NCBI GenBank assembly: GCA_037576195.1
Contig: CM075104.1
Coordinates: 4,408,775 to 4,472,774, forward strand
DNA length: 64,000 nt
DNA from: Phytoseiulus persimilis
Lineage: Eukaryota; Arthropoda; Arachnida; Mesostigmata; Phytoseiidae
Direction: 5' to 3'
Shown here: piece after piece, positions 8,647 to 63,400 of the stretch
How positions within the stretch are numbered: position 1 is the stretch's first letter
Layout: each line of letters starts with the position of its first letter
Made by a program: the position numbers and the translations under genes
The notes under the pieces: generated by a model
What the model saw: the letters and a program-made list of their open reading frames with translations, nothing else
Told to the model about the DNA's origin: nothing
The model's database searches: none

Positions 8647-8739
8647 AAGGCATGGCGCCATCTCCAATTCTTGCATACTTCCTCCAACCCCGACTCCGAG
8701 AACGTAATTTTTCCGTCGCCCATGACACCGGACGTGCGC

Positions 8740-8837: not shown

Positions 8838-9320
8838 TCAGATGAAGCACCCATGAGTCATCGGAACAGTATTGTTCAGTGGCTATCGATGCTTCATGTG
8901 GCGAATGTGACCGCCGGAGCTCCCATCGATAGTCTCCGTTCCCACATGCACGGTGCAGACGAAGCGGCGAAAAAGCTCGCTTGAATCGCTCACTTCGAGA
9001 GTCACTCGCTCTCAAATGCGCAGGCACCGTCGGTGCCGACTCGGCAGTAGTGCTCGGTAAAATAACACATTGAAGCATGAGCCTAATCGGAATGTTGACG
9101 TACGCTGGGAGAATAGTGTGGGACTCGCCCGGAAGCTGTCCACATCTTATTGACTCTCATGGAAAGCACTGACATCGGGATATCTCAAAGTGGTTCGATT
9201 CCTTCAATGACCAGTTTCAACCGCGAGCGGAAATTGTGAAGCATAATTCAAGGATCTTAGAGATCGGTTGATGAAATCGTCCCGAACGCGTCCCACACTG
9301 CTCTCTCAGCTACGTTGGTG

Positions 9321-9352
9321 GACCTCCCGGTGGTTGGACCCACCGGGAGGTC
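9321..9352. repeat. Perfect 13-bp hairpin
   Basis: gacctcccggtgg (9321-9333) is followed by a 6-nt loop and its exact reverse complement (9340-9352). The stem is GC-rich. No gene end can be assigned nearby, so a role (transcript 3' structure, transposon end or chance) is not established. Confidence 0.8.
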
Positions 9353-12300
9353 GTGCTTCAATGCAATCTATTGCAGCCTGAATCAATAAAGAATAAAAGT
9401 TTGGAGCCGCTTCTGCACTGACAACACCTGACTATTTGAAACCCCGCTACTATAGATGTGGGCGATTCGAGCGAAATTTTTCGAGCATGTGGCATCGGAA
9501 AGCATAGGGTATTGATTGAAGCTCTGATGGTCTTTACATCGCAAAGAAGCATTGGTAGCTACGGAACAGTACTGTCGCAATTGTTTGGATAACTCATGGG
9601 AGCTCCGTCTGAATCTGCGCCGAAATTTCCGGGTCCGCCGGGCGTATACATATGTGTATACATGAATGCCGGCGATTCTCAGTGGGCAGTTGGTCACGTT
9701 TTCCGCGCATCGTTGCGCCTGAACCATGTCGAACTCGGCAGACGTCACCCGCTGACAGGGGGTTCACTCAATCGTTGACATTCTTCCTCTGCCCCGAAAA
9801 AATGCTCCGCATTGCTTTCAATCCATCATTCGATATCATTCATTCAGAAGTCAGAGATTCATGATATTGAAAACTTCCATTCGGGCACGTGAATGTTGGA
9901 CAGGTGAAAGTCTCGAAATGATGATCCTCTTCCTTCGAGCGCCTACCCAATACAGTTCTCGAAGGCGGTCTCCCTGAGTCACTCGTCAGAAAGCCCCAGG
10001 ATGATATCTGGGCGTAGCTTCACGGGGGTTGCGCGGAGTACTCGGTCTCTGCGAATATCTTTCTGAGTCTTGCTCCACAGTGGATTCTCGCACCATCACC
10101 TATCGTTCACCAGCATAACTGCGAGGAGGGGCGACGAGGATGGAAGGGAGAGTACGCAATCGATGCCCTAGAGGAGGATGGAGCTGCTCGCATGTGAAGT
10201 GTCGGAAAGATCCTCGAGGAACGTTACTTGGATGAGGCCACTACATGAAGTTTAGGAAGAGGAAATCGAGGATAGGTTGAATAGGACTTCGGCGAGGAAG
10301 CCTACGAGACTTCTATTCTTTTTGATTGCAAACTGAGGACGGAGTTTTCGAATAGCCAGAGCAACAACTCAATTTGCATAGTGCTCAGCCAGCAAGTGGA
10401 GCACTTGCTGCAAGCAAGTGTAGCGAAAGCATTGCTTACAGAATGAGAGTTTTCGACGCCTCGCATAGAAGCTTCCCTAGCTTGGAGCGAGCCCCAGATT
10501 CTGTCGCGGTAATGGGTTTCGCGGTGATGGGCTGTAGCCGACGGGTGATGTAATTTGAATCTTCCTTCAGCAGGTTCAGTCCTTGGAACGTACCGGAGTA
10601 CCGTAGCGACCCTCGGTGATGCCCGGGGCGAAACCTCAATGTGATGCATTGGCGACAAATCTGAAGTTGCGCTCGTACCTGAGGCGTTTGAGGTGGTGTT
10701 GGAGAGGATTTCCCTCATGGATGGCGCTCATTAGCTGCTGAGATCCTCGGGAGAAAGCGTGTGACACAAAACCAGGCATGCAATAATTAACGCAAAACTC
10801 ATCGCAGTACACAATGACAACAGTACAGAGTCCATCTCCTCAGGTCTGATGTCATCCTTCGCCAAGGCGAGTCGGCCACGGGATTGATCTGGGCAAAATG
10901 TTCCTCAAGACTGTTGATTGGCATGGAGAATGTTACGTGACTCCTGTCGAATGAGAGTACGTTTGCGACCCCTGAAGAATCTTCGGAGAGATGCCGATTA
11001 CGGCCGCGTTTCCCCCTCAATTTGGGACAATTTGTTCATGTGATGATTTTGTGCGAGTCATTCGTGGACTATCCAGACTCCTAGTGGGCGATGTTCCCGG
11101 GCCGAATATCTGATAGAACTACCTGACAGAATGCCCAGACGTGAGTCTGTAATTTAGCGAGATTGTGGTCTCGTGCCTGAGAACGGCTGCCTAGTGAAAC
11201 GTTTCGAAACTCCCTGAACTCGAGCTGAAATTGTATTCTCCAGTTGGATCAGTCTTGGGCGGCGAGCGTCTGTGCGCACGAAGTTCACCCCTGTTGTGAC
11301 GGCCCCTGTACTTGGCCCCCGTTGCAACCTCCGGAGTCGAATCTCGTTAGTGTCTTTTATCGGATTTCGCAGTTTCGTCTATTTATGGGTTACTCCTCCA
11401 CCGAACTCCGTATCGATGATCTACGTCTCGATTCCCTCTTTCCGAAGGAGGTAGAAAACAGCGCCGTCATTGAGAGAGGACCTGTGTGGGACTCGGGCGG
11501 TGTGTGGAGGACATGGGCGCTGTGTGGAGAGTCGAGGAAGGCGAAAGCACAGAGCCAGGGAAGCTTCAGCGTCTCTACCTGTTGACTTGACTAGAATTCA
11601 ATCTACAGCTTATAAACGTGAGTTTCCGAACAGAGTTGTCTTTGTGGATTCATGTTTGGCAGCCTTTTCTGATCTCGAACAGCATTGGTTGCGTGGAGCA
11701 CAGGTGTTTCAGACCAGGCGTCTATTCTGTTGTCTTCCCTGGTCGGAGTCAAGGCTGTTGTCTTCTGCTCAGGGAACGACAAGCCGCTTCTCGGAGAGTT
11801 GTTGTTGTCGCTTGTTCACACTCCGGTTTCGAGCGCGAGACTCAACAGGGAGTGAATACAGATAGCTTCCAAACGAGGAACACGATACCAGAACCTCTCT
11901 ATGGAAGAATTCTTCGGACTTCGCTAGAGCCTGAGATTCGACGAACCCGATCGCTGCCTGGGCTACTCGATATCGGAGCATCGACTCTCATTAGTTGTAG
12001 CGTAATCCAGCGCGTTCTTTGCAACAAGCACGTCAAAGCGCTGCTGTTCAAGCTCCTCCAACAGATGGTGAGGCCAGATGGTGGGGTTCTCGTCGACGGA
12101 GACGGACAGGCTGCAAAATAGCGGCTCCCTTCATATTTTTTGTCTCTTCCCGGTGAAGCACAGGGGAATGATCATCAAGGCTCATGGCGGCCGAATGCCA
12201 GGGGCGGCCAGGAGCGTCGCTATTGCTAGAGCCTGCGTGCTGGATCCATGGGGACGATTTCACTCGCGTGCTTGTTTGCGTGCTTGTTCACTTGTCGATC

Positions 12301-41403: not shown

Positions 41404-44400
41404 GGAGATTGGCAACAAGTGATGGCCCGCTCCGGAGGCGATACTTCATCATTCATGTACAATTGAGCTATAGAATAAGGCGAGACATTTGCTTTTTGAA
41501 GGCAGATTCAGAGAATCGCGTCGACATCGGATGCGGAAGCGTGTGGATTGGTTTCTGAAATCAGTCCGAGCCAGCTCGGTTCCCGATTTTCCGCAGTAAT
41601 ATTGAACTAGGACACTGAAAGAAGAATGAACGAGCCCGGTTGGATAAGGAATATAAATTGCTATTTTCCCTTTCATAAACTATTGGTGCTATTCCTTCCT
41701 CCGCTTTCTAAGCATCGAGAATGTTTAGAAAGTGGAAGTGGTGGAGGAGAAAACTTTTTACCGATGGACACGCTGAATCAGAGGGATTCGTAGTCGAACG
41801 AATGTACCGACGGTGGCTGCGTGTGTGCGTGGGAGCAGCTTGCTTTCCAGATCAAATGGAACAGTCGGAGGGAGAACCGGAGGCTTGAAGCGCGGCGAAC
41901 GATACAATTATGAATTCTTCATCGATTAGAGAATTATGAAACCGCTTCAGCCCGGTTGATCTTTTTTATTGAGACGTATTGTTGGGTGTCTAGGACTGCT
42001 GCGAAGTAGACGGAATAAATGTCTTCTGTAACAATACAATTCCTTTGGGTTTTTCTCCCCCTCAATCACGCTGAACTCTGTGGGGTTTTGTTCTGTTACG
42101 AAAAGCAAGATTCAGATGACGACATGGCTCGATTATCAACCATTTTGAGAGTCTGAGAGCAGAGAATGTTCCCCCTCGTTTCATCTTCTCTCCCTCCTGC
42201 GAGGTGGGAGTGGGCAGCTGCCACTCAATTTGGCTTGTGATACTCAGGTTGTCGGTGATTCGGTCAAATCAGCTGCTCCGTCCAGACGCTGCAGCAGAGG
42301 GCCTGATTCTCTCAATTTTACAAGCTCCATTCACCAGCGATGGGTGATTTTTTCCTTCGGTGAGCCGAATGCTCTGAGGAAATGGTCGTCGCTGTAGGAT
42401 GCGACGTAATATCCGAATATCATGTCACCGCACCTCGCACATGTGTGGTCGCTCCGTAGAGCGAAAAATGCCCTCCTCTGTGCAGTGGCAGCCGGAGCCA
42501 CCATGGTTGTACCGCCAAGAGGAGCTTCTTATATCCGGTACGCAGCAAAACGGTTCTTGGAAGCATGCCCCGGCTCCAACTTCATTCCTGAACTCGTTAA
42601 AGTCAATACTTGGTCTGGGAGTTATTTGCGTTCGAGGCTGGTGCTTCTTCGCTTGATGGAACCAGAGTAAAACCTGAGCCCTTTGACTTACGACTTACGA
42701 GGCTCAGGTTTCACTTGGGGTATTGAGGGCTGGCCCCGAGTTATTTGACAAATTCTCAATGCAATCCATCATGTCGGTACGCAGCGGCGGAATCGGAACG
42801 GGGATTCGTAGGAAATGGTTTTGGGCACAAATGTAGTGTTATCATCCGCCGTTGGTTTCGTCGAGTTGGAAAAGCGAATTCGGAGGCTCTCACGGAATTG
42901 TTGGTCAAATCGTTGACGTCCTCGCTGATTTCAAAACAAGGATCACGAGATCCTCGGATTAGGATCATGCACCAGATGTGAACACGAAGAGAAACATAGT
43001 TCATAGATCCTTTCAACCCAGCAGGCTCATCAAGGAACTGACTATCGTCGCTTGTCTTCGATTCTTATTTGGGTCGCCGCTTTGCTAACACTTTCCAGAT
43101 TCATCTAATTCAGAATTCAAATGCAGATGAAATGCGAGCTTCCTAGTCGACCAACACCGGGCTGCAAACGATGATGTGGAACGAGCACCAGTGTTTCGAC
43201 TTCAACCCCGGGTAGCACCGTACACCGGAGAGCCCCGTTTTCGGCGAATCGGCGAAGAAGTTCTCATTCATCTCCGCACGCTTCGGAGTCCTTCGAAAAA
43301 TAGTATTGAACGACAGAGAGAATATGCATTCTACTGCCTTTACCATGAGTCCATCAGAAGTTCGGAAATTCGTGAGTCGAGAATCGTCTTACTCTTCTCC
43401 TCTAGCTCATTACTCGGTTAGAAATGATTGGATTCATGACCGAGAGCTGTGGGGATGACGCATCTTTTTAATTTCCATCAATCAAGAACTGCATTTCGAA
43501 GAACGGCTCGAAAAGACATATTTTCCCGCTTGTTTGACAAAACTCACCGAGAAATGTCTGTAAACTCCTTTCTTCACTCGAAAATCGAACTCATTCAGTT
43601 TTTCCTTCCTAGACCAAATTACTTCCATGATCGATGAGCGCAAATGAAGAAGAAAATATGCGACATCCTCGATCGCAAATCAAATCCAAAATCCGATCCT
43701 TTTCCATCGAATAATGAGCCGAAAGAGGAGGGTGAGAAAATTCGCGACTGTCCCGAGGGATCGGTCGCAGCAAAATGCGCATTCCATCGGAACGCTCGCA
43801 TTGTGAACACGCGCTCGGAACAGGGGCAAATTGATGGGGGGATGTCGAGCTAGCCTGTTCTCGTGGAAGGATAGAGAGATGAGCCAGAGCTGTTCTTCCT
43901 CGGTGAGAAGAACTTTCTCCGAATTGTGAGCTCGAACGAGAGACGTCAGGGAGCGCATCCGCGGCCTTGTCGACTGCTGCAAGACCGAGCAAGGGTTGGA
44001 TTAGTCGGATCTGGCGGCAAGAAACCAATCTCCGTCAGGAAATAGATCACAATATCTGCCTTATGATGAATCGTGTCTCCTATTTTCTTCTCTGTCGAAA
44101 ATGGGGGATGACTTGGTCTCGGGGTCAGGGGTCGCAGACTCGGACTCCCGAGTCCGGCAAGTCTGAGTCCACGAGCCCAGATGAGGGCGCAAAATCGTGT
44201 ACTTGGAGCCAGATTCATGTCTCGGTTCTGGCCTGAAACACTCCGTTGTGCTGATATTCTTGGAGGTATTTGAGGTCTTGCGACCGTCGTGAGCTGTGCA
44301 TCGTTCAGGCACCGACGTGTCTGCGAAATTCCGAGTGTCCACCCGCCCGATTGCGGTCTCGTGAGGCGCGGTTAGATGACGTTAGTCGAAGGATGATCAC

Positions 44401-45450
44401 GATCGACAGCGATTCCACGGGGCCGGGTCACAATACAGTCGAATCGCCAGACTGTTTTCCGGATTCTCAAAGCTTTGTGGGCCAGAATAAGTTGGGACAG
44501 ATGGGGTCCGGGAGAGTCTATTCGAACAAGACAGAAGCGCCTGCTTCTGGAAGAGCATGGGGATTGATTCTGGTCATCACCAACTCAGAATCAGACATTC
44601 TGGAATCGGAACCCATATCCGAGACTTTTCGTCCTCACCTTGACTCGTGGACTCGATCTCGTCCAAAATTACGGATTCGCCAGCTCCAGACTCGGACTCG
44701 CGGATTTCTGCGACTCCTACTCGGGATATGTCTCGTATTGAAATTCCCTCGTTTCATGGCCTTGCCATGCGAATTTCGAGTGAGAACATTGAGAACACAC
44801 CGGATCACAACTCGAAAGAACTCTATTCTTCTTAAACTTGATTTAATAGATCTCGAGACTGCAGTCACTCCAGAACAACAGGCTCATCTTCCTCCGGCGA
44901 GGGCTTCGCGGTAGGGTTTCTGTTCCAGCTCTTTCTCGGGATACTCAAGATATCGCGCATTTTCGATACTTGGTTCATGTTTGGAATATGGCTTTAATGG
45001 CCGGAGTATTCGAGTCCGGGGGTTGTCTTACTTTCAGGGTGTGTCTCATCAAAAGGCAAACATGCTATCATAGTATCTCCTCGTCGTTCTTCTCAACACC
45101 GCTGCTGTCGATTAGGAAATCATTCTCAAGGAGCTGAGCGGAAAGAATCTAACAATGCAATGCTTACGAGGAGGGACCTCCGAAAATCTTCGCGGGAACC
45201 GCGTCGTTTCGCCTCAGCCTGGCAAGCCTGGGATAGGACCACCTCATGGTTTCATTCGGAGCGATCGCTCGGAGCGACGGAATAGGAGACTCAGAGGGGA
45301 GTGGTAAAGTTGCCCACCCAAGATCTCCGTTTCCCAAGGAAGATCAGCGGCTCAGAATACAATGAAGGAAGTAAAAACGAGGGATGAAGAACGCGATGAA
45401 TGGATGTGTGCCTCCCGGTTTGGCTGATCGCATGAGACGGACATGAAATA
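41404..45450. other. Gene-poor region before the Tc1 element
   Basis: It begins with the Sec24 3' flank; a candidate AATAAA is at 42,014-42,019. An 82-codon plus frame (42422-42670) is Ala/Arg-rich without motif. An imperfect hairpin (aacctgagcc 42671-42680 with ggctcaggtt 42701-42710) follows it. Between about 44,100 and 44,720 the sequence is enriched in gactcg/gagtcc-like words, like a decayed simple repeat. No tRNA or other RNA gene recognised. Confidence 0.45.
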
Positions 45451-46271
45451 CACTGCCCGACATAATGATAGCACATTTCGACTTCCCGGGATTTTTCGAT
45501 CTTATTCTGCGGGCAACCTCGCCATCCGCTGTCAGACCGATGGCAGATTCATTCAGGCGTTCCCGGCTCAGTTTCCGTCCCTCCCAGAACTCCAGTTCGA
45601 TTTCACAACAGAAAAATGCAATTTTGCAGGGTTAGTAAAGTATAGCACATTTATTGCTGAACTGCAAAATCGTGGTTGAGGACGCTCTCTCAATATCCTG
45701 TGCAGCTGCCTTGGGCCTCTAGTACGGCGACCATGCGGTTGGGAAGTGATCTGAACAGATCGCGCACGTAATTTTGAGGAAGATTTCCCCATTCTTGCGT
45801 TATTGCTAGTTTGAGCTCATCAATGGCGGAAAACTGACGATTCTCTCGGTAAACCGCTTGAGACAGATGTCCCCAGACGTTCTCGATTATGTTCAAGTCA
45901 AATGACTTCGCAGGCCACTTGAGACAGGCAATCCTTTTTCTCGCGAAGTGAGCTTTCACGTGTCCTGCAGTGTGCACAGCGGCATTATCTTGTTGGAATA
46001 TGAACGGACGAGATGGGAACGCCACGGCATCGGGTTTTCTGAACGGTCGTATCTGCGGTTTGATGATCCTCGAGCAGGTCTTCGCGTCCATACGACCGGG
46101 AACGAAGACTATATCCGTTTTTCAATCATAACCAATTCCGGCCCACACCATGACACCGCCACCACCTATTTGACGTCTGAAGAGGCGTTTCTCTCCCTTT
46201 CTCAAGTTATGTAAGCAGTACGCGTAGCCATCGGGACCATCCAAGGTGAATCTTTTTTCGGGAACTGACCT

Positions 46272-46440
46272 TTTGAGCCCGAAGACATTTAGAGCCCAAG
46301 TACATTTGAGCCCGAAGACACCAAGAGCCCAGGAGCATTTAGAGCTCAAGGACATTTTGAGCCCAGCGACGTCTGAGCCCAGCGACGTTCTGAGCCCAGC
46401 GACGTTTTGAGCCCAGCGACGTTCTGAGACCAGCGAATAA
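46272..46440. repeat. Left inverted array of the foldback-like element
   Basis: About ten units follow one another. The outer ones read gagcccgaagacattta and gagcccaagtacattt; the inner four read gagcccagcgacgtttt with few changes. The inner units are nearly identical and the outer ones diverged. Confidence 0.9.
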
Positions 46441-47186
46441 AAGGTTGATCAGAGGTTGAAGTTTGCGGATGAAGCATTCGATAAGCCGCGTTGCGACAGA
46501 GAGCCCGGATAGGCAATGACTGGGTAGTCTTTAAGATGAGCCTTCCGGCCTCCAAGGGAAGAATTCCACAGGTTTTTTGAGGAGTTTTTTTTTAATTCAC
46601 TCAGCAGCGCTGTGGTAGTAGACTCTCATGAGAAGAAGAGCGCCCACAGGTTGCTGCTTCAAGACTGATGAAATCGTTGGAATCAGGGAGAGGTCGCTCT
46701 CTATCTCTTCCAATGTAACTCTTGAGCGCAGCTCTTGAAATGTATTTGCTCTTCAACAGCGAAATAGAACTCGTGTGGAGCGATCGATGTGCTGCTCCTA
46801 GGCATGTATCGGAGACTCGGATTTCGGCAGTTAATTTCCGACTCGGAAAACAGAGAACCGCTGTTCACCGATTGATTCCGGGGGTTGGGAGCGTCCGTTA
46901 ATGATGGATCTCCGTTTTCCAAATAAAATATTGATTTCCGAGTCTCAAATCATTTTCCGAGTTCCGGGTCCCGGGAATACATGTCCAGCTGCTCCCATGA
47001 GCCCTACATGAAAAACATACGCTTCCGAATCCGATTCACGACGGTTCTCCGCTCGCTGGAGGATTTTCTGTTCGCAAAGAGCAGACACCATTCCCAAGAA
47101 AAAAATATGGAATCAACGAAGGAACATAGCATTGCGTGATCAGAAACGTTTCCATCTCCAAAAACATTTAAAGCACTCTGTATGGA

Positions 47187-47356
47187 GGCTGGGCTCAAAA
47201 TGTCTTCGGGCTCAAATCGTCCTTGGGCTGATATCGTCCCTGGGCTCTAAATGTCCTTGGGCTCTAAATGTCCTTGGGCTTTGTTTGTTCCTGGGCTCTG
47301 AATGTTTTTGGGCTTTAATGTACTTGGGCTCTAAATGTGTTTGGGCTCAAAATGAC
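47187..47356. repeat. Right inverted array of the foldback-like element
   Basis: Units are the reverse complement of the left array, for example gggctctaaatgtccttg, twice in a row around 47250-47282, and gggctcaaaatgtcttcg at the inner edge. A more diverged unit may extend the array inward to about 47150. Confidence 0.88.
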
Positions 47357-48126
47357 CCACACCTCTTTTTTCATCCGAGAACAAAACACCGTACTACGCG
47401 GCACTCCATCGGACATGCTTGCGAGCGAACTCTAATCGATTGAGTTTGTGAATCGGTTTCAGGGCCGGACAGCCGCGTAACTTCTTCCTTTTCAAGTGTG
47501 GAGCACGCTTGATCACTCTTTGCACCGTCCGTACACTGCAGGACACTCCCGCGGCTTTCGCGATCTCCCTAGTCGACCGAGAACTGTTCGACGCGGCTCG
47601 TAGTAGAGTTCTTTTCTGTCGTCTCGTGATTACACTCGGACGTCCCGAGCTCCTCTCTTTCCCATAACCCTCTGGGTCAGCCAAAAAGTTGCTGATCACC
47701 TTCCGGCTGCTACCGGTCATTCGAGAGATTTCGGTTTGCGACTTGTTCTGGGTATGAAGTCGCAGGATCACAAATTTTTCACTTTCAACGAGAGCCTTGC
47801 CTCGACCCATGGCGGAATCATCACCGAAATGGAGTGGAGAGAATCAGGCAACGAGGAGGCTTATTGTGGACCCAACTTCGTTGTCATACTTGTTCACGCG
47901 AGCGTCTCAGCTAGGATTCCCCGCTAACGTGCTATATTTTTGTCGGCCCCGAAAACTCATTTTTCCTGAATAAGTTCCGAAATTTGAAGCCGAGGAGTAT
48001 GAGAACCGAACTCTGGATTTCGAATCGGGGGAGGTTTCGGCCCCGGGGGAGAATCGCCGAGTGTTTCGGAGGAAATGTGATTTTTTGAGCCAAAAAGCAG
48101 TCGGGCTATCATTTTGTCGGGCAGTG

Positions 48127-48770
48127 TACCTACTATTTCGATCAGATCACAGGCTGCCTTGAAGACATCAAGAGATAACTTTATTGCTCACTTTGACTGT
48201 TTCCGCGTTTTTTTTCTTCTCGGATTTTTGATTTATCACGTTCTAAGTGAACTCATGTTTCTCCGTTGCCTTGGGAAACGACACTGTGCCTCGGTCTGTT
48301 ACAATGGGTACGGGGTTTTGCCTCAACATGAGTCATGGCGGGAGTGTTACCTTTTGTCGATCAGAGGAGCCGAAACTGTGAAACGCTCCGACAAGTTTTC
48401 CGAAAAACGAATCTGGAACATATTTGTAGCGGCTCCATGAGAGAACATCGTTCCGCATTGTTCCACTTGAGCGAGCAAGAAGAAAGCACTACTTCAGAAG
48501 TTCAGTGAGGTCTCCGGATCGCGATGATGAAGTTCGTCAGGGAAATCAAAGCTGTACATCTGGACTGCATTTATTCTTGGTACTTGATTTAGAAATATCA
48601 CTGTCATCCTGAGAGACCCAAGCTCTGAATCAGGTAGCTCAAGATTTTCTCAAAGATTCTCCTCAGGAGTCCGGATTCTTCGTCTCCGGTGCTGAGTACA
48701 CAGCGGTCTGGCAGATTTTGAGTTGTATCAATGTAAACGATTTCTTCCTCATCATCCGTGGCATTTCGCC
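48127..48770. other. Short intergenic gap
   Basis: It lies between the right end of the Tc1 element and the lipase A stop codon. No coding sequence, repeat or RNA gene recognised; it should hold the lipase A 3' UTR. Confidence 0.45.
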
Positions 48771-51700
48771 TCAAGAACTCAACATACTTGCAGATGTCTC
48801 GTTCCGGTCCCTTAAAAGTGCCTCAAGATCAGAATCGGGATGTGACGCTTCCAAACAAGGATTCTGTAATCTACTGGTTTGGGAAGTCCGAAGCTCATTT
48901 CGAACTCACCGTGCAATTACGATTCACAGCATCCGTCACGCTCGCACAGCTGTTTCCAGTATATCGACAATTACGGTCGCAATTAACGAGGAAGTCTGTG
49001 TAAAAGGTGGTGGCCATGATGTGGCTGCAAGCAATCTGCAAAGCTGGAAAGCGACGACGTGCTCCAATAAGTATTCTCCTCTGAGGGAAAGATGAATCGG
49101 GAATATTGATGGGCCCCTCCGCCCGGAAAGGTGAAGAGTTCTCACGAGGTATCGGGCATCCAGGCTGAGGAGCCACGCCACCGTTAGGGTAAAAATCAAT
49201 GTTTCCGAAGTTGTCTTTCAGGCCCAGCTGGCCCGCGAGGATTTCGTTGCCGGAGGAAGTGTGAACAGCTTCCAGGAATTGGCTGTCAGATTTATTCGGC
49301 CAAACGTTGAGTCTCTCGAATCCTGGAGCGGCCACGTCTAAGCCTTGAGAGTGAATATCGTGATTAGGATGAATGATCCGCATCGGAGATTGATCATCAT
49401 AGTTCCTGTGAGATTGTAGCTCTCGACCTGAATCGATCGTTTCGCCTCCGCACCGCTACGTGAAAAGTCTAGGGTCTCACCGGTAGCTCGGCCGACTTTC
49501 GTGTTGTGTTGAGTGGAAAGCCATTCCGTAATTCGCCCGACCGTCTGGCCACCAAGCGAATGGCCGATGAGGTGTATCCTGTCAGGCTGTTGGGGGAAGC
49601 AGGGTAATGTTGACGACTCGCGGATTGTGGTATTTGCTAGCCCCAAACTACCTATGCTAGATTTGAAGATCAGACGCGAGTATACGACGTGAGATCAGAT
49701 GCAGATAGGGTGCGCTCGTCTGGCCTCCGTGAGCGCGTTTGGCTTCCACTCAGTAGCTGGAGTCAGCTTTTAAAGAGCGCGGCAGAGGATTGTGGAGGAC
49801 TTGAGTGACGCCTCACCGCTTTCCCGTCTTATTCATCAACGCGCCGCACGCTCCCTAGCATTTTCTGCCAGGGTAGCTGGTGGTTGAATTTCAATACGAT
49901 CTCTCGAGCGAAATAAGAAATGCAAATGGTGAAAGAAGCGTGTGAAGCTTTTTCCGCCGATTCCATTCGCACCGGATGATCAATCGATACTCGTATCCCG
50001 AATGAAGAATGCGACGGCCCATTGCTCGAATCGCCGTCTTCCCTGGGCCTTCCTAGGATATGGATACACTTACGTTCAAGTTGTATTTGACTGAGAGGCG
50101 ATAAACGAGTTCGGCTGCAACTCTTCCCATCATGAAAGTGTTGACCGCCGCTTGTATGTAGTTGGGACCCTTCGCGCCGTTTCTCCAATCTACAGTGATC
50201 ACATTCCGCTTGAACAAGGAAAAATAATCTTAGAAAGAGGTGTTCAGCAGATGCATTCTGAATTTAGGCCTCCTGTTCCTTGACCGCACTCAGACAACGT
50301 ATAGCTTTCAGGTCTCGTCGGCGATGGATTTGTTGATCGCGCTCAAAATCGGAGGGAAGTCCGCCAGTGGCATCAGAGCTTGTCGGAACACAGCCGGGTC
50401 TGGCTAGCCTGAAGCTTCCTCGCCACGAGACTCATGACTCGGCAACATGATGACGCCCAGCTCTATCACGTGCAATCTATATTTCGTGAATGGTTCCCCT
50501 TGTCTAACAGTCGAAAGCGCCCGCATAACTTGAAGGGCAGAACTATCCTCCCTTCTTTGACCTGGGGGTTTATATGATGAATAAACCTGATATGTTCCCA
50601 ACTGGTGTTAATGCCCAACAGCCCGGGCATCCCGGTGGGTACTCGTCTTGATAATTGGCGTTTTGCCATATCATTTCAATCGATACTTCCAGGTATTCGA
50701 TTCAGAACTTCTCCTTTCGTTTCACAGCCCAGGATTATGAGTTTCCGGGACTCGAGAGTAGCCTAGAGAGTCAGAGGTCTCCGAGGGTTTCGAGGTCACA
50801 GAGAGACTCAGGTTCTCGATCAGAGGATTCTTCAAGCGGTTCCCGATCTCATTCCCTGAATCAGTGATTCCCACCAGGAGCCATGAATCCCACGGCGCCG
50901 GCGGCTACTTGGGGGTCATCGGGAGGTGGTCTTGGGACACCTTATAGTACGGGGACGTTCAAGAGTTTGGACTCTCATGCATGATTGAGAAGAATCTCGT
51001 GTGATATATGGGTTCTTATATGGCCGTCATACATCTCGATGGTACTCTGGAAGTCCCAATGATCGTGATCATACTGCTCGTCTCCTCACTCAGAACTTTT
51101 GACGGCGTTCGGGGGAACGACTCCCGCTCTGTCCAGCTTCAGGGGGAACACGGGCCTGAAAAAGCTCAGAACCCCCGCTCTAGATGGGAGGGTAACGTCG
51201 CTCACCTGTCGAGGCTCGGTCAGATTCAATAATGCCTCTGTCATGTTGAACACCCAGTCGGCGTCTGCATCACTCATGAAGCCGTGAATGACGGCTGATA
51301 AGTAAGATTGGGAGTTCAAGAGCGTAGAGCTCTCATTTTGGAAAGATTCATCGAACTTCCAACGGCGATACGGCACTGAGGCGTTCCCCTAGGAGTAGAA
51401 ATTCCCAGCTTCAATCTTGGTGGTTTAGAATTTTTCTAGGATGGCCTTAAAATTTCGTATGCAGAATGGACGATATGGAGGATGAAAGCTCGCTCACATC
51501 TCGGAATAGTGCGAAGGTCGCGTTGATGACATCGGGCATTTCGGGAGCGGTGTCTCCCTCGGAGAAGTTGAAGCACCCAACATTTAAGGGTTCGCCAGAA
51601 TCGAGGTGAAGCTCCGGACACAAGCTAACTTGCTTCTTGGAACTGTCCGTTTCGCTGTGATTAATTGGAAACACCAACGGATTAGATATGATTGCGTCGA

Positions 51701-54339
51701 AAACGAGCTGGGCGCGCTCTTCGGCGGGGAATAATCAAGACTAGTGTATGCTCATCCCCTTTCTCCTACAGCTCCTCCATTGGCACCAATGCACCACGTA
51801 CTTCACTGCTGATATTTGTGCTTTTCCCCGCTCAAATAATATGAGAATGAACCATGTTCCTCGAATGGTCGATCAAGGCCATGTTTCCGACTATTCCATC
51901 CGAAATCTCCTCAATGAAAGTACGATGATGAACATTTCATGATTTAATCCGTGGACCTTTGCTGACGAAGCAAACGTTTGTGAAAGGTAGCTTTTTGGAT
52001 CGGAACATGTCTAGTTGATCGCTCTCCTCTCGGACATTAGACAGCTCTTGCTCCGAAAAGCCCGGAGCTTTGACTGTACACGAGCAATATACAGGGTAAT
52101 GGCTGTATGTCGAGGTTTTCATCCTTCATTTCGACGGCTTCAGACGATGCATCCTTACCCGTTTCTCTTCCGGTGTTCTTTTGAGAATTGGTGACTTTAG
52201 AGCATGTCGAACTCGACTCTCCATTTTTCCTCGACGCATAACTTTAACAAGCTCGCAAATAGCCAGAACCGGCTGATTCGACTTCTACCCTCTTCAAGAT
52301 GCTTCTACGCGCACGAAAAAATCACTTTTCGCTCGGGACTCACTGACGAGGCCGGTGATCCGTTGGGCAGGGAGGAGGCTCTTCTCTAAGCGAAGCCCCG
52401 AAAACTCGTGGACGGTGGATAATCCATGCATTGCTATCATGATCGGGGCTCTGACCGCTTTCGCACCGCTCCCCGCAGCTGATGTATCCGCAATTTCGAG
52501 GGACACGCTTCAGGGTTCCTCTCGAGTAGCCGAACAGATCGATGATCTGCGTTTCGGTTCTGCCTTTCCCCAGGGCCGGGATGATCACTCCCTTCTGACG
52601 GCTACGGTCCTGGAGCCTATTCCTGATGGCAGCGTGGCTGATCACATTGCCATCGGACATCTTCAAACTTGAGTTTTCTCGGCTTTTGAGAGAAGCAGAA
52701 CCGGAAGGCGGATCATCGCGCTCTCCGGCTATTTTCAAGAGATCGTGAGGCGAGTCATTCAAGAGCGACAGAAACATCAGATGCGGGGAGGGCGTCTTCC
52801 CGATGCGCCGAAAGTTATTTCACCGAGAACCCGGAGGACCAAAAAATAATCCCTTAGGGCCGAAAACCCTCCCTCTCGTTTCGATGGTAAAGCGAATCGA
52901 GATAGGCTTCTATGCACGGGTCTGAGAGACTGCCCTCGTGTGATTCTGGAGTGGTGGTTTTCAAGCACGTAAGTGGCTTCCTTCAAATACCCGGTACGTC
53001 ATTGACCAGTACCCTTAAAAGCTCGGCTCGCGAGTCGGGCATCGTTTTAGATGTGCAGTTCCCAGACTTGTCATTATTCAACTGGTCTCTTCCTGCCCAT
53101 CAACGCGCAGTCTCTCAGACCCTGTGCTGCGCATTGGAGCTTAGCTAGAGTCACTCGACGGGAGAAGGGGTTGAGATTTTTTTTCGGCCCCACGGATTTT
53201 CGATGCAATCGGTTCCGGCACATCGGGTATGAACCGCGGGAAGAGGTGCCGAAGCGCTCGAGGTCCCGATCATCTAAGCCACGTGCTCCACCTGATTCAT
53301 GATGCACCGATCACGCCATCATCATGCCGTCCGCTATCCGAAAATGTTCGATAGGTGAAGGGTCGACATGGTGAATAAGGATCAACGATTTTTCTGTTGT
53401 TTTGCTCGGAACGGACCCTTCTCTGAGCAGGAACGATCCTCGTAATCGGCCCCCTCAGTGAGCCGTCGAGACGGCGGTTCCACAGAACCACCAAGATCGA
53501 GGGAACAAACTGTGAATCTATATTCGAGTTTTCGAGTCCGCGCGCCAATGGGGATTGAGGAATCGGAACGGGAAAATATGCGTCTTCTGAAGAGCTACCG
53601 AACGAAGAAGAGCATCGGTGGCTGCAGATTCTTCGGAAAATTCCCGTGCCTGAACTTGTTCGAACTCCGTCTCCTCACTCTACCGCGAGCACGATTCTGA
53701 TGTAAGAACTTATCCACGGGGTCGATGCCGAGCATTGTGTTTTCGGCGAGGACTCCACCAAGACAGCTTGAGGATATCAACGAATATTTCGCCACTCCTA
53801 TCTCAACTGGAGTGGTCGAATCGAGCTGCGAGTCTCTCGTCTCCAACCACTCGATCCTGAGGGTCTTGAGGGCTTTCGGCGTCTCGAGCTCTACCTGAGG
53901 TAGCTCTTCAACATTCTGGAGCGGCGATTTAACAAGAAAGGAATCGTGTCCGCTTCGAAGCAGCCATCTTCCTCAGTTATCCTTTTCCTCGTCAATTACC
54001 ATCGACTCATGAGATGCTCGACCCCATACCACTCTCAGGAGGATGATTTGATCATCGGAAACCCCTCGGAAACTTCGAAACAGAGGACAAATCCGCGTAG
54101 AGCGTAAAAAGAACGCGACAGTGCAGATCAGTACTTGTAGTAAACATGTTTTCATGTGGAGATAGAGGTCTTCTCTCGTAACCTTTTGGCGATTCTTTCT
54201 CGAAACCTTGTTCGGTTCTAGGCTATTGTCGGCGACAATCTACTGGGGGGAAGAATAAACAAGAAATGGATACGTACGCTGGGGAAACAACTTGAAGAGC
54301 ACCGAGAACGGAGGTCACGATAATTGTTGCAAGCATCAT
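48771..54339 (-). CDS. Secreted pancreatic-lipase-like enzyme A, 355 aa
   Basis: Exons in transcript order: 54339-54278, 51654-51498, 51388-51206, 50208-50074, 49586-49481, 49343-49146, 49043-48910 and 48863-48771; phases match throughout. Exon 1 encodes a signal peptide (MMLATIIVTSVLGALQVVSP) and joins across a 2.6-kb intron; it is the least certain exon but has the required phase 2 and a GTACGT donor. The catalytic triad is visible: Ser189 in GHSLGG, Asp217 in GLDVAAP and His288 in CSHIMATTFYTDF. A short lid and paired cysteines follow the family, and no PLAT domain is present. The substrate should be a tri- or diacylglycerol or phospholipid, outside the cell. An N-terminal ~60-residue segment with CPELHLDSGEPLNVGCF is shared with lipase B. 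Intron 3 is enlarged to 997 bp. Confidence 0.88.
51950..52665 (-). pseudogene. Decayed mariner-like transposase remnant
   Basis: The minus strand at about 52,665-52,480 reads like a mariner N-terminal helix-turn-helix (AAIRNRLQDRSRQKGVIIPA, then QIIDLFGYSRGTLKRV). After a frame change the stretch to 52,294 ends in LVSESRAKSDFFVRVEA, where such transposases have a second helix-turn-helix. At 52,120-51,950 FSEQELSNVREESDQLD resembles the FSDEK-type catalytic start. No ends were identified. The remnant lies inside intron 1 of lipase A in the same orientation, which helps explain that intron's length. Confidence 0.42.
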
Positions 54340-54479: not shown

Positions 54480-54770
54480 GCCTTCCATTTCGACCAGAAA
54501 AAAATGAGCCGAGCTTGCTACAAATTGAATTTGGCCCCACTCGGACTCCGAGCGAAGGTTTTCGATTTCCAATTCAAGTAGCTTGTCAACGAATGAGAGT
54601 TGAACTCGCCAGCTGGGATGAACAGCGTTACGAAGTCATAATTCACTGTTCACACGTTTCGAGATATCGCCCTACTCCGCGACGCCTGCCTTCTGGGCTT
54701 CAAACTCACCGTCCGGGGCAGGTCGAGCATCGATGGTTTCCATTCCAGGCATGGAACTAGGGAGCATCTG
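54480..54770. repeat. Duplicated segment, copy 1
   Basis: About 290 bp aligns by eye with 56,818-57,095 in the same orientation, with blocks such as cgccagctgggatga and gtttcgagat. Read on the minus strand, both copies contain a short frame ending MxTIDAR...GVAx-stop, with an in-frame indel of two codons, then a second shared stop. This copy lies about 140 bp upstream of lipase A exon 1. Confidence 0.7.
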
Positions 54771-57700
54771 GCGTGATTCGAGCTTTTTTGAAATCAATCA
54801 ACCCAGCTCCTGAATTACCAGTATAGCGTTTAATGTTCCCTTTAGACGGCAGAAATGACACCGATTGAGACTACGCTGGATCTCAACTATGCCGAAATGG
54901 TTCTGTGAGAATGAGAGTTACAGTTCACCCTCGTGTAATTCAAATCATAAATGCGGAGAGCGATTGAAATAATCAGAAGTTGAAACATTCGAGGTTTCAC
55001 TGTATGTCAGATCCATACTGGACAACCGGCTGTCCAAGCAGAGGCGCTGATGAGAACGACTCGGCTTTGGAGGTCAGTGACCCTTGGCTAGTCGTTGGAG
55101 CTGACTGCTTTTCTCAGATTCTAAGGATCGTCCAAGTTCCCTCGGTGACTCCTGCTGTCCGTATTCGACCCTGGTCCGGTCACAGATTATACTCTTCTCT
55201 CGGGAAGTGCTCTTCGGAATTTCTCATCGATTACCGCTGTTTATGCCATCAGAACATGTCAAACTCATGTTTCAGACCGTCCTTGCTCACGAGAAGGAAG
55301 CTCTCATCCGACCAACTCAAGCCAAGCCAACATAGAGACTATTTCAGACGCTTTGTGTAGTCAGGCATCCCGCGTCCAGAAATTCAGTGACTCCTGTACA
55401 TATTCATGCAAGTCTCTTCCACACCCAATACAGCACGGATGGAGTTTGTAGCCTCTTTTTCTCTCTTGCCACAGCAAGTAAGAAACTTCGTATATTTTCC
55501 CCATGAATACACGGCTGATTTCTTAGTCATAAATTATTCGAATTCTTCGTTCGTTCTCCATACTCATCTGCAGACTCTGCAGTTCTGGGATTCCCCGATG
55601 GCGTACCACATTCGCATACGTCAAACCAGGCGCCGCTTAATTTTCCAAACGTGATGATTCGCTTTCAAAACTCTACCCAAGTGGCTCAGCGTCCCGAGTT
55701 GGGTCCCCGTGGGTTCCGCATCACGCGCCAATTCTGGCTCGACTCTGGGTCCGGTGAGCCAAACTCGACTGATCAGCAGTGCAACATGGTCTGGAGATCT
55801 CATTTTCTCTCATCAACGGGGAAAGCGTCTCGCCATATACGCTAGATCTACTCTACTGGAGCCACAACTCAAACTGATTTGTGCTTCCTGGTCGAGAGTA
55901 TTTGATTGGCTCTCCGGTTCTCGAAATCTAATCGAATGACGCACGCTATTCTCATTGATGTTCTCTATTCTCTAGAAATACACAGGGTCCCCGATGGACA
56001 AGCGGAGTAAGTACAGCTCGACTTGTCAGCGGATCCTAATGAGAAAAACGCTCGACGTTTCCATTGATTCTCGATTTCCCGTTGGGAGGGGTCATGTGAC
56101 TCATGGTACCGCTGAGAGACGCTGCTCTCCGCACGAGAAAGGCGCACATGGAAAGCGGAGCCGCAGTGACGGGTCGGCGTGCTCCAGTGGTCGGTGAGAG
56201 CCAAGCGCCGACTCAACGAGAGATATCTTGACTTTTCGCAGCAAACAGCTGTTTTCTTTTCTTCCGGCGGGCAATACTTCCACGGCAACATGCACACGTA
56301 TCCGAATGAGGAGCTCAAGATTTGCTAAATACGTAGGTCGAAAAGAAATGCAGCGTCAGTGTTGAAATGACGACACATTCTATTGATTCTGAAACGGCTA
56401 GATTCAGGATCACGGGCAGCTTCGCGAGGGAGGCATGTGATCGGGAACGGGCCTGGTCAGCGCATTGCTCGAGAGTGCGGCGCCTCACATCCCTCCAGGG
56501 ATGCGATTCAAACTACTATCATTGTTGCGGAAAACCGTGTAGAAGGCAGACCGAGGAGGGACTTTATCTTCGTGCCGAGAAGAATCGTGACAGCGTCGAC
56601 CCGGCCGCTACGTCGATTCGGCTCACACGACAGCGCGGCCGTTGCGTACGGATGTCAACCGCAACCTCGATTATAACAACTAATCCATACGAAAAACCAG
56701 CGAGAACGGTTCAGAGGGATCGGCGCTCCAGCTGTCAAGCATTCCTCAGCTGGTACTCTCTTCATCCATTATGACAGAATAGAACGATCATCCCCGCGCC
56801 CCTGCAGATATATGTATGAACCGAAAAGGGTCGGGAAATGATGACCGGAACTCGCTCGCAACTGATTTTGGCCTGACTCGGATTCAAACCGAACTTTGTA
56901 GACTTCCCGTTGTAGCAGCTCCTCAACGAACGGGAATCGACTTCGCCGGCTGGGATGAGCAGCGTCACAGAGTCATAACTCGTTGCCCACTCGTTTCGAG
57001 ATAAGGCCCTATTTTGCGACGCCTACTTTCGGGGCTTTGAGGTCATTGTTCGTTCGAGCGTCGATGGTTCCCATTTCAGGCTTGGAACGAGACAACATTC
57101 GACCTGAATCAAGACCGCTGTCAGTCCAGGGGCATATACCCGACACTCGTTCCATGTCTCTTGCGGGGAGGCAAGTCTCACCGAGCTCGTATTTGGTCCA
57201 GAAGCAATGAACGAACATCACTGCCGGCCAATAGAGAGAAGCTGCTAGCCGAGCCGAAAGGCAAAACTGCTGGCCTGCGGCTGCTCACAGTTGAGAGGCC
57301 AAAGAACATTTCCGAACTCTGGAGCGATCCTAGCTCTGGCAACTGAGTTGGACCCTTCTCCGCACCGAATGATACCGGTACGAACTCGATTGGTTGATTT
57401 TGGACGTTCTCTTGCTGGTCGGGTGGAGCATTAAGTGGGAACAGGTGAATTCTCGCTGCGCTCGAAACGCAATCCTTTTCCGGATGATTGATCGAAACAC
57501 GTGCCATCCTGCCTGCTACGAGGGATCTAGCCGTGTCGGTGTTTTTGTACGCGGTCCTGGAATCTTGGGGGAGCGTACTGTTTGCCTTTCAGAGCATTTC
57601 GACATCAACGACTTGCCTGTCCCCGACTTTAGCCTGTTCGGGCGGACAACCGCTGTGTTCCATGGACGTATCAGTGTGGAGTCCATATTGAGGACCGCGA

Positions 57701-58548: not shown

Positions 58549-60451
58549 TCAAAAGCTCCTTAGTCCCCAATCCTCCTCAATCCTGAAAATTGGCTCCACT
58601 CGATCACAAACCTCGCAGGCAGCATCCTCGGCGCAAGCCACACTCCTGCAAAGTCGTGCCGGATATCGACAGCCAGATGCGCAACTCCTCAGGAAATCGG
58701 TGTAAAAAGTTCGAGCCATATTGTGGCTGCAAGACACGTCGAGAGCTGAAACCAGAGAAAACCCAGTTGCATCTGAACCTCCTCTCACGTTCATATACTC
58801 AAATTCACGAAGTGTCAGGCTCAGCGACGGATCCCTGCTCACCAACGATGGGGCACTCGGGCTGGGCGGCTTTGCCTCCGTTCGGGTACACATCGACATG
58901 AGCAAAGTTCACGGTCAGTCCGAGATCTCCAGTCACCGGAGAGGGCCCCGATGAAGTGTGGATCCCTTCGAGAAACTTGGAGTCCTCCTTATCCGGCCAC
59001 ATGCTGCGTTCTTCGAAAAGAGGAGCCGCGACATCCAGACCTGGAATCGTGGCGCGGAGAACCTTGAAACATCTCCTAAAAGTCAGGGACTCCAAAACTT
59101 CGAGATATGTTGGACGCTTACCGGTCGCGCGACCCACTCGCACTCCGTACTTCTCGTTCCACCACTTCGTTATTTGGCCGACAGTCTGCCCTCCAAGGGA
59201 ATGCCCGATCAAGTGCATTTTGTCCGTCTGGAATATGGAGCGGACGCTATTCGTCAACGGAACGTGCGGAACTCCTTTCGGAGCCCTTCTACAGCGTGAC
59301 TCATCGATTAGATCCTGATTCGAGGAGACAATATGGAGACGGATCGTCGAAGGGAGCCGACTGCGTTCAGTCGCGCATCGCGAGTACTCACGTCCAGGTT
59401 GAATCGTTTCGTCAGACGATTCAGGAATTCTGCCGTCACTCTGCCAAGCATGACAATGTTGCTCGCAGCCCTCGCGTAATTGGGTCCTTCTGCACCCTCG
59501 CTCCAATCGAGGAGGATTACGGCTCTCTTCAAAAAACAGCCATAGTGAGTCAGGTGAGAGTGAAGTTTTCGCTCGCGCTCTTCTCATTTCTGGGTCGCAG
59601 ACATGATGTGCAGCCAGTCGGTCGTGCGTACCTTCTCTGGTTCCGGCAGCTTCAAGATTGCATTTTTCATGTCGATCATCCAATCAGCACTGTCTGCATC
59701 TTGGAAGCCATGGATGATGACTGACAGATAAGAATCGGGGCCGAGAATACCGTCCGCCTCGTTTCCAAGGGGCTCATCGTACCTCCATTGGCGAACACAG
59801 CGTGATGCATTGTCCTGAAAGGAGACGAAAGGTTTCAACTCCGAGGCAAGCTCTTCCTTCCACTGGTACTCGCAGCGAAGCTAGATTCACACAGGTCCAA
59901 TCCCCGGCGCTCAAGTGTTCAATACATAATACGCACGCTCTTGTACAACGAGTAAGTGGGGTTTATGTATTTGGGCTTCAGTGGTTTGAAACCCAGAACT
60001 GAATCGAAGCATCCCACTTTCAGGGCTTCCCCATTGTACAGTTTGAGTTTCGGGCAGTAGCCCTCGTTGAATATGAATTGGAGTGATCCAGGAGCATTGG
60101 TGTCGGACAGCCTGCAACGTGAGAGAGCCTGCTGAATATTCGATGATATTGTTACGCACGCCGTTTTTTGATAAGCTCAGGCTCATTGATCGCCAATATC
60201 GCGGGATCACCTGTACACTTCCCCGGTCAGCGCTGATAGCTTTTGAAACGGTCGCAACAACGGCCATTGAGAGCCTCGCTAGAATTTAATTGTGACGCGA
60301 GAACCACATCGGTGATTTTCAAGATATTCCTATCAGAGCTAGCGAAGCGATTTAAAGAATCGCCACTTCCAGGAGGTGATACTCACGTAGCTTGTGATCG
60401 GGTACAGTGACACACGAGGACGAAGATCAGAGAAGCTGGAATCGACCGCAT
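58549..60451 (-). CDS. Secreted pancreatic-lipase-like enzyme B, 352 aa
   Basis: Exons in transcript order: 60451-60387, 60111-59937, 59814-59632, 59526-59392, 59227-59122, 59040-58843 and 58745-58549, all GT-AG and phase-consistent. Exon 1 encodes a signal peptide (MRSIPASLIFVLVCHCTRSQ). The triad is Ser196 in GHSLGG, Asp224 in GLDVAAP and His295 in CSHNMARTFYTDF. Strand and oxyanion region include YLSVIIHGFQ and LLDWSEGAEGPNYARAA. The C-terminus carries two close cysteines (CEVC) and no PLAT domain. Exons 3-6 have exactly the lengths of lipase A exons 3-6 (183, 135, 106, 198 nt), so the two are tandem duplicates; the last two exons of A correspond to a single exon here. It is expected to be an extracellular digestive or salivary lipase; substrate not determinable. 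Confidence 0.93.
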
Positions 60452-63400
60452 ATTTGCTGATGGCGATACAGACTGGAAGTTGTTGACGAGAGCTTTCCAT
60501 ATTTATGGTTTCCAAGTCCCGGCTGTATGACGTCGGACAGTGGACCTTGCGTATGTCAAGAAATGCCTCAGAGATGTCAAAAGGAACAACTACGACGATG
60601 TAAAACTTTCTGTGTATGACAATCGAAAATCGAAATTCTATGGATACGAAAGGAGGAATTCCATTCATGGCCGTCTGGGAGCGACGGCTGTGCTCACCCT
60701 TCGAAGAATGGATAGCGCAGAGAGATAATCCCCAGAGTCAACGGGAATCGAAGACGGCCTTGGCCTCGAAAACTTTCGATGCGGAACCCTCCATGGCCTC
60801 CGAAATGTCCCAAATTTTCAACTGAGGTGGTCGTCGAAAATCTTGCGTCGATTGTCCCTCACCCTACCGAGGCAATTCACCCAATCAGCTTGGTTCTCAC
60901 TCTGCTCTGTCGATGGATGTTGACGCAAGTGATCCTGTCAATGCCGTCCACGTCAGACGAGCGGACTCGAATCATTGTTGGAACGGTTTCTGAGTCTGAA
61001 TCGCCTGGCCTGGGCATTGTCTTCCGAATGCGCTCTCAACAATTCAAGAGGCCGTGTCGCTGAGAGACAGGACGCAGTTTCGCTGCTCGATGCACCTCGG
61101 TCATGCGACTTTGAATGACGGAAGGGTTTCTGTGAGCCCTGGAATTCACTAAGTGGGTGAAAGTTCCCTTCTCACATGTCACGTCTCAGGTCCCTAGACA
61201 GGAAAACCAGGGTGGTCCAGAGTAGCAAGTAGCAGTATATTCAAAAGGAAGACCAAAGTAACGGCGATCGCATCCAATAACGTCACTGTCGATACCTTCC
61301 ACTGAAATCGAACATATGTCGGCTCCTCGTGAGCAATTACAATGATCGAAGACACTGGCTCATTCTGTCAGGAGAAAAGTCCCGAAATCTTGACAGATAT
61401 CACGGAGAATCCACACAACCTGTTATAACGAGCGAAATCATCCTTCTCTGAGGATGTAGCACCCTAACTGTTTCTCGCGAGCGACGTTGACGTTCAGGCG
61501 GATGTCAAGCCCGATATGTCTGTCCCCGGGAGTTCCCGTCTCCCAGAGAACCTTGCCTCATGTGAATATCCCACATTGGAAGAGGTCACAGCGAAAACCT
61601 TCATGGCGCATGAAAGATAAATCTGACTTTGGATCCGTGTACAGAGGAATCGGTTCCGAATGATTCAAATTCGTTCACATTCAACGAGAAACGCCGAGCC
61701 GATCAGAAAGTTATAATGAACACCGTGGACCAGCAGTGATGCCCCAAGTCTTTTTGAACCTGCTGAACCACGTAGTTTCTGGGTCAATACTGGATGAGTC
61801 GATCACGCAATATTCCAATGCACTGAAGGAAACACTTGAATCTCCCGCTTGATCATAAGAGCGTGAGAAATCACAGATTCTCCCCGGGTATCATCGTAGG
61901 AGGCGTCTCGATCCGGCGAGGGACATGACGAGCGGAGCGGGCCCAGACAATTCGGCGCCGACAATTTGGCGCGAAACTGTTCGGCCCAGCACAACTCGGC
62001 GCAGGACGACTCGGCGCAGAAGACTTGGCGCAGACAGCTTGACGCGAACCTTCACGCTACCGATCAAGCCTATGCTCTCGCCGACAAGGTTGAGTTCCGA
62101 AGGAGCCACTAGACTCCGAATCGGAATCCGAATGGTAACTATTACCTGGGTGAACCGTTATCTGAGGGAGAATTCACCGAATGATGGATCTGATATTTCA
62201 GGTATTCCAAGGTGGTCTCGTCAAGACAGCTGACCATTCGGTCCTAAATGAGCCAGGAGCTTTCACACTCAGGAACACCTCAGATAATCAATCTTCCTGA
62301 TGGGAAGTCCCCTTGATCAATTAAAATGAGCATTCTGACGTAGCTCCACAATGATTGCTACTCATGATGAATCAAAACTCAATCCTGTCGTGAGTACTAC
62401 TTCCGGCTCGGTGATCGAAGTCCAACCCGGAGAAATCGGCGCGATTTGGAACATCCTCAAATTTCGTAGACGAGTCGCTAAGTAGAATGAAAGGTTCCGA
62501 AAACTTTGCTCCCAGCGAGGGCAAAGCGACTGTTGCAGGCTTTGTCCCTGTCGCGAGGAACCAGGTTTCTGTCAAACACATAACGCTCGCTCTCATTACA
62601 ACCGAGTCAGTCATCGAATCATGTCAATGGGCACTTGAGCTCTAAACATTGAAATTGAGCAGGATTGAGGTCTGTTCTTGCGAGAAAGCCGCCTCCATGG
62701 CAATCGCTCGAAACACTATTCTTAAGAGTTGGCGGTGCCAGGAGCAAAACAAAAACGAAATCCGAATCGGATCTTGTGCAGATGATCAAAAGTCGGAGTC
62801 GCCCTACGTCGGCTCCATGAAAAGCTAGTATGTCCGCAAGACTCTGAGGCACATGCTGGGGGCTTCCGCCCGCCTATTCATCAGACGTGATAGTTGGAGC
62901 AGGACTGACTTGTTCGATTCGTCTCAGGGTAGTGCCCTGTGGAGCACAGGGGCGAAAGACACCGGCTTGATCTCGCGAGAGATTCCTCTGACGCGGGCTC
63001 GATCCTCGGCGTACGCAAATATGGCTGCTCAAAGCTCCGCTCGATATTTTGGACCCCTTCTCCGGAAAAGACCGCAGATGCATCGGGAAAATGTGGTCCT
63101 TAGTCAGAGTGAGGAGTGTCAGCAACTGTACGCGGTTCCTCCCGTGGTCTACAGAGCCGGGTTACCCCTGCCGAACTCGGTCTGAGAGTCTTAGACCTCT
63201 CCAGATTTCACGACGTCGAATCCCGAACCTCAGGGGACCGCTGAGAACTTGAGCGATTCCTGCAGCCATATCAGCTCTTGCCCCTGTGCTATTCAGATTG
63301 CGGTTCCTTGAGAGCTCGGAGGACTCATTGCCAATGAGTCATTGGTACCACAGAGCCGATCCGATGATCCTTCCAAGGTCAATGTTGAGGGCTGCTGGAC

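Follow-up and report, generated by a model that had tools for sequence, protein, structure and literature searches.

A foldback-type element with short-unit inverted arrays, probably Mutator-like, inserted in a Tc1 transposase frame of Phytoseiulus persimilis

An insert of 1,104 bp at positions 46260 to 47363 of the 64-kb stretch of Phytoseiulus persimilis DNA analyzed here (the window) is quite probably a DNA transposon that has the foldback form and is non-autonomous; its likeliest class is that of the Mutator-like elements (MULEs), within which it would be of the Muta/Phantom kind. This kind of element is already well described; the insert is a further example of it and leaves knowledge of the class unchanged. 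As a foldback element whose ends are built of short units, it has very clean borders, and it sits inside an open reading frame (ORF). Its arms stand in register, differ at one-fifth of their sites and show an arm-specific expansion of units, which makes the element useful for studying how such arrays originate and whether a transposase binds the units.

Borders of the insert and its Tc1 host

The insert interrupts a Tc1-type transposon that lies on the minus strand at 45449 to 48128 (2,680 bp with the insert) and ends in TACACTGCCCGACAWAATGATAGC, including the TA target dinucleotides; the two ends, of 24 nt each, differ at one site. The Tc1 transposase is split into an N-terminal part (47364 to 47810, minus strand; 149 codons with one internal stop), which overlaps the right copy of the target duplication, and a C-terminal part (45690 to 46250, minus strand; 186 codons with one internal stop and no frameshift). 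Rejoined, the two parts form a frame of 335 codons if codon 336 is taken as the terminal stop; no frameshift interrupts this ~1 kb, and codons 139 and 192 are internal stops. The best Pfam families were HTH_Tnp_Tc3_2 (1.2e-8) and HTH_Tnp_Tc3_1 (2.2e-7) for the N-terminal stop-free piece and DDE_3 (1.3e-12) for the C-terminal stop-free piece; the 42-residue Tc1 piece beside the insert had no Pfam match.

The insert, to which no strand was assigned, is flanked by copies of the 9-bp target duplication TCTTTTTTC, read on the plus strand at 46251 to 46259 (left) and 47364 to 47372 (right). The duplication is exactly 9 bp, as the neighboring bases differ (A and C before it, G and A after it). In the empty site, made of the flanks and one 9-bp copy, one unbroken Tc1 frame runs over the junction, with ...LFSDEKR on one side and FTLDGPDG... 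on the other, and the borders of the insert are thus fixed independently of its repeats. A preliminary description of this DNA had given the length of 1,104 bp, the coordinates and the 9-bp duplication, all of which proved exact to the base and agree with the in-frame empty site.

No second copy of the element was found within the 64-kb window by self-BLAST or by a scan with the unit pattern. When a 19-nt unit pattern was searched for at a tolerance of 3 mismatches, the window gave seven matches, all of them inside the insert (0.01 expected from 100 shuffles). Unit patterns had no match in viral contigs, one of the patterns used being that of another array in the window (array B, described below) and not that of the insert. 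The insert itself had no match among phages or plasmids, virus and bacterial collections that are little informative for an animal element. A single unit-pattern match in a bacterial contig (L001) was attributed to chance, the only tandem array of that contig having another unit. The array in question (L001:4940-5015, in a bacterial MAG contig) is a 19-bp array of four copies at 98% and is unrelated to the insert.

Architecture, turnover and interior of the insert

Both ends of the insert are arrays of short tandem units. The left array (46267 to 46442, plus strand) consists of the part-unit GACCTTTT followed by ten units of 16 to 17 bp, the first of which is GAGCCCGAAGACATTTA; the right array (47180 to 47356, minus strand) consists of the part-unit GTCATTTT, again followed by ten units of 16 to 17 bp. 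The unit consensus is GAGCCCAAGGACATTTA, and the innermost unit (unit 10) is degenerate in each array. Since each of the two part-units is similar to the latter half of a unit (GACATTTT), the arrays, in our own reading, begin at base 8. Outside them lie the terminal motifs, GGGAACT on the left (46260 to 46266, plus strand) and, read inwards, GGTGTGG on the right (47357 to 47363, minus strand), which is not the inverse of the left motif. The proposal that the ends are inverted arrays of ~17-bp units was borne out by a 165-nt inverted match when the window was aligned with itself by BLAST (79%, E 9.9e-33); the inversion holds from base 8 on, whereas the outermost 7 bp are not inverted. The terminal motifs are alike at only 2 of 7 bases, so that the two ends show no shared, conserved cutting site. 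Their first three bases are GGG and GGT, five of the six being G or C.

The inverted arms are 79 to 82% alike and correspond unit by unit. In an ungapped comparison of the 105 bases that follow the terminal motifs inwards, they are 80% alike in register and 61% and 69.5% alike when shifted by one unit. Right units 1 to 5 match left units 1 to 5 in register, with unit 2 being 16 bp long in both arms, and for these five outer units the true pairing is the single best of the 120 permutations. By this register, both arms derive from one arm and not from two independent arrays. The insert has the long inverted ends built of short tandem units that characterize foldback elements. It also has the end pattern of the Muta/Phantom type, in which a short terminal motif is followed by about nine subterminal units; here there are ten, of 16 to 17 bp.

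Turnover of the units differs between the arms. Left units 6 to 9 are near-identical (GAGCCCAGCGACGTTCT; 88 to 100% alike), and among the right units each of them is closest to right unit 7 (76 to 82%). This pattern suggests that a single ancestral unit was multiplied in the left arm only. In the right arm the closest neighbors are units 5 and 6 (94%), the four inner neighbor pairs being 71, 82, 71 and 47% alike. The suggestion that the innermost units on the left are the most alike holds if the degenerate unit 10 is set aside; the same is not true of the right arm, whose closest pair lies further out. The related suggestion that the arrays grow from inside likewise applies to the left arm alone, the right arm being without such an inner block; to judge from the unit sequences, growth from inside is one event in one arm.

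Departures from the consensus are unevenly spread along the unit. Columns 1 to 7 and 11 to 12 (9 of the 17 columns) hold 11 of the 59 departures and the other eight columns hold 48, and 80 of 20,000 random draws gave a between-column variance at least as large, in a test of 17 units (left units 6 to 9 collapsed to one) that treats units as independent despite their shared ancestry. The constrained columns were chosen after the counts had been seen. This bias would suit a protein-bound core with free spacers.

The interior (46443 to 47179, no strand assigned) has a coding capacity within chance. The longest open stretch of the insert spans 117 codons, where 200 shuffles gave a median of 95 and a 95th percentile of 138, and the longest ATG-started ORF is 53 codons; these values agree with the preliminary description, which had seen no coding capacity. 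In the self-BLAST, no other part of the window matched the interior at an E better than 0.2. It contains an imperfect inverted repeat (46814 to 46970, no strand assigned) with 39-nt arms that are 74% alike, possibly a nested small element. Rfam gave no match in the window at the gathering score, and two sub-threshold matches to long noncoding RNAs (lncRNAs) in the insert (E 0.64 and 0.95) were taken as chance. In a fold predicted with ViennaRNA, with a parameter set that was possibly not that for DNA, 131 of the 380 pairs join the two arms and the energy is -233.5, compared with -140.8 ± 6.8 for 30 mononucleotide shuffles. By this prediction, a strand can fold back through the arms.

Affinity of the element and rival explanations

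Drosophila FB and sea-urchin TU elements are further relatives in form. Among the published elements that we found, the insert is closest in anatomy to MULEs whose ends carry subterminal tandem repeats (Muta1, Muta5 and Tm1); the comparisons made here draw on parts of the published descriptions. In Aedes aegypti, Muta1 makes 8- to 9-bp duplications and has terminal inverted repeats (TIRs) composed of a 10-bp terminal motif and nine 12-bp repeats with 3- to 4-bp spacers, while Muta5 has an 8-bp terminal motif and nine 15-bp repeats (PMC5225508). According to the same source, 10 of the 12 long-TIR families have subterminal repeats of 9 to 15 bp, Muta1 derivatives vary in unit number and have mostly unrelated interiors, the authors class Muta1 as a type 2 foldback element, and its transposition in yeast with 8- to 9-bp duplications has been demonstrated (PMC5225508). 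Muta belongs to the Phantom family (PMC6446971). The insert is like Muta1 and Muta5 in its duplication, given as 8 to 9 bp, and in having a short terminal motif followed by some nine or ten short direct units. It is unlike them in the length of its units (17 bp), in arms only ~80% alike, in terminal motifs that are not inverted copies and in that no transposase was seen.

Tm1, a Mutator/Foldback family of root-knot nematodes (Meloidogyne), is described as having mostly 9-bp duplications (of 53 complete copies, 45 have duplications of 8 to 10 bp), 7-bp terminal motifs that are asymmetric and not part of the inverted repeat, and tandem units of 13 to 15 bp (~14 bp) in the TIR (PMC3169594). A gene-less copy of it is 1,080 bp long, the autonomous form carries a Phantom-type transposase, and the arms are mostly non-identical, with an average identity of 93% (PMC3169594). 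The insert shares with Tm1 the 9-bp duplication, the asymmetric 7-bp terminal motifs, the tandem units within the TIR, the gene-less state at ~1.1 kb and the non-identical arms. It differs in unit sequence, in unit length (16 to 17 versus 13 to 15 bp) and in the similarity of the arms (~80% versus 93%); further, no histone stem-loop of the Tm1-HH kind was found in the insert with a consensus of that motif.

Other described elements are less close. Tetris of Drosophila virilis, apparently a non-autonomous foldback element, has 8- to 10-bp duplications and tandem repeats within the TIR, but its units are ~220 bp and its TIRs reach 1,735 bp (PMC4079207). Rehavkus shares the 9-bp duplication and a minisatellite with the insert; its TIRs are 26 to 400 bp, its minisatellite lies before the 3' TIR and its transposase has a PHD finger (PMC6446971), whereas the arrays of the insert form both inverted arms. 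Galileo, like the insert, has long, internally repetitive TIRs, with THAP-domain binding sites in the tandem repeats (PMC3688188), but it belongs to the P superfamily.

The exact 9-bp duplication with its in-frame empty site lies in the range of 8 to 11 bp given for MULE duplications (PMC6446971). In most arthropod MULE ends the first three bases are said to be conserved as G or C, a tendency and not a strict rule (PMC13359780). The foldback/Mutator affinity suggested in the preliminary description gains support from duplication length, end anatomy and published architectures, while the class is one that we infer, no transposase having been seen. The insert may, as that description proposed, represent an undescribed family within this well-described kind of element. 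None of the window ORFs scanned with Pfam (26 of the 30 of at least 150 aa) encodes a MULE transposase, and smaller or intron-split genes would escape such a scan. Counted against this explanation are that only one copy was found and that the duplicated 9-mer is T-rich.

Under this explanation, a transposase encoded elsewhere in the host, which we infer together with its class, would bind the ends and excise the element. Insertion at a 9-bp staggered cut followed by fill-in would then produce the 9-bp duplication, which is seen here with its exact borders. By analogy, the ~17-bp units would probably be repeated transposase-binding sites beside a short terminal cutting site, and their number would change through local duplication, the left arm providing an example. 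Such an element would need neither a gene of its own nor exact symmetry of the arms.

A foldback-type element moved by another superfamily, such as Merlin or hAT (with duplications of 8 to 9 bp) or a P-superfamily transposase like that of Galileo, seems a distinctly unlikely source of the insert. Merlin makes duplications of 8 to 9 bp; those of hAT elements (8 bp) and of P-type elements (7 to 8 bp, Galileo included) are shorter than the 9 bp of the insert. In favor of such a source, the foldback form has arisen in further superfamilies too, Galileo in the P superfamily being an example (PMC3169594), and the TIR repeats of Galileo are bound by the DNA-binding domain of its transposase, in a report that as of 2013 called repeat binding untested for Foldback and Phantom (PMC3688188). 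Against it, mosquito MULEs often carry short-unit arrays beside a short terminal motif (PMC5225508). Far less probable is that two unrelated minisatellite arrays grew around an older small insertion or palindrome and that the whole never transposed. The left inner units do resemble local duplication and the window contains other short-unit arrays, but the 9-bp duplication, which is exact, lies at the outer borders and has an in-frame empty site, largely refutes this idea, as does the unit-by-unit register of the arms, in both of which the 16-bp unit holds the same position.

A further question concerns age only and is compatible with a foldback MULE: the arms might have diverged after insertion, the copy being old. 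We regard this as unlikely. The unchanged 9-bp duplication alone would be compatible with it, since at 18 to 20% divergence nine sites would all be alike with a p of ~0.13 to 0.17 (our own arithmetic). The Tc1 ORF, however, which is older than the insert, has two internal stops and no frameshift over ~1 kb. Divergence after insertion (9 to 10% per lineage) predicts 3 to 10 frameshifts, and zero has a p of ≤0.05, under an assumption of 0.05 to 0.15 indels per substitution that ignores selection on the Tc1 ORF before insertion. The Tc1 ends, moreover, differ at just 1 of 24 sites. The arms probably acquired most of their divergence before the jump, which suggests that transposition does not require matched arms.

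Other short-unit arrays and features of the window

A scan for periods of 13 to 19 gave seven spots in the window, namely, the two arms of the insert and five others, compared with 0 or 1 per shuffled window (ten shuffles). Array F (392-465) is a perfect 15-bp unit (TTCTGGCATCTGAGT) repeated 4.9 times, and array B (8735-8861) has ~15-bp units like GGACATTTTGGCGCA. Arrays D (1118-1240), E (1778-1864) and C (about 61935-62050) are degenerate, with units of 14 to 18 bp; the bounds of B, C, D and E were adjusted by eye. All five may be old remains of similar elements, target duplications having been searched for at B and F. Array B abuts an inverted domain (8829-9045 and 9406-9621; 65%, E 1.6e-15, self-BLAST), and the stretch from 8735 to 9625 may be an old second foldback-type element that has lost nearly all of its right-arm units. 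No exact duplication pair of 8 to 10 bp was found around this locus. An overlapping 10-bp pair with one mismatch (8674 and 9779) was rejected, as it lies far from the array edges and such pairs are as numerous as chance expects (our own arithmetic). At array F, the inner edge CATCTGAGGCATAACC (458-473) recurs inverted at 839-854, about 380 bp on; around this locus there was no exact 8-bp pair and no 9-bp pair with one mismatch or fewer. Exact inverted 15-mers no more than 1.5 kb apart occur at three places only in the window: array F, the insert and 52918/53107. The last of these is an exact 16-bp inverted repeat (52918-53122) whose copies start ~190 bp apart.

Local alignment against shuffled sequence gave the left array of the insert a score of 192 with its own right array (47 for shuffles) and a marginal 43 versus 42 with an upstream stretch at 44130-44261. 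Within 4 kb on each side, the inverted partner of array B scored 49 (largest shuffle, 48), and arrays D, E and C had no inverted partner above the largest of 15 shuffles, D having one that equaled it at 34. Array C had a direct match at 58582-58691 (45 versus 39), where no array was seen on reading.

A 13-base core read from arrays B and C has one match in each array of the insert, a number reached in 15 and 23 of 200 shuffles; common ancestry of the insert arrays with B and C is therefore not claimed. The same core has two matches in D (reached in 1 of 200 shuffles) and none in E. For a 10-base core, the number of matches in the right array of the insert was reached in none of 200 shuffles and that in E in 1 of 200, both of which indicate enrichment; enrichment is weak in the left array of the insert (12 of 200 shuffles) and absent from D (35 of 200). 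Arrays B and C have 6 and 7 matches to the 13-base core and 5 and 6 to the 10-base core (0 of 200), which is circular, as the core was read from them. It is a tentative and somewhat doubtful possibility that the host genome carries a set of MULE families with end arrays of 15- to 17-bp units, the units differing but perhaps sharing one core (GACAWTT..GGCGC / GACATTTTGAGCCC). In these families the arrays would change more rapidly than the catalytic ends. The elements would then go on jumping although their arms had diverged strongly and their terminal motifs were not inverted, and the loss of one arm would leave an isolated minisatellite.

The window has several other features. A direct repeat of ~280 bp (54499-54782 and 56836-57113) has copies that are 71% alike and 2.3 kb apart. 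Pieces of lipase-family genes (Pfam PF00151) lie on the minus strand at 48895-49383 and 58805-59683, and the DNA around them is related (48961-49348 versus 58663-59045, 59%). The Pfam scan also identified a Sec23/Sec24-type gene in pieces and C2H2 fingers.
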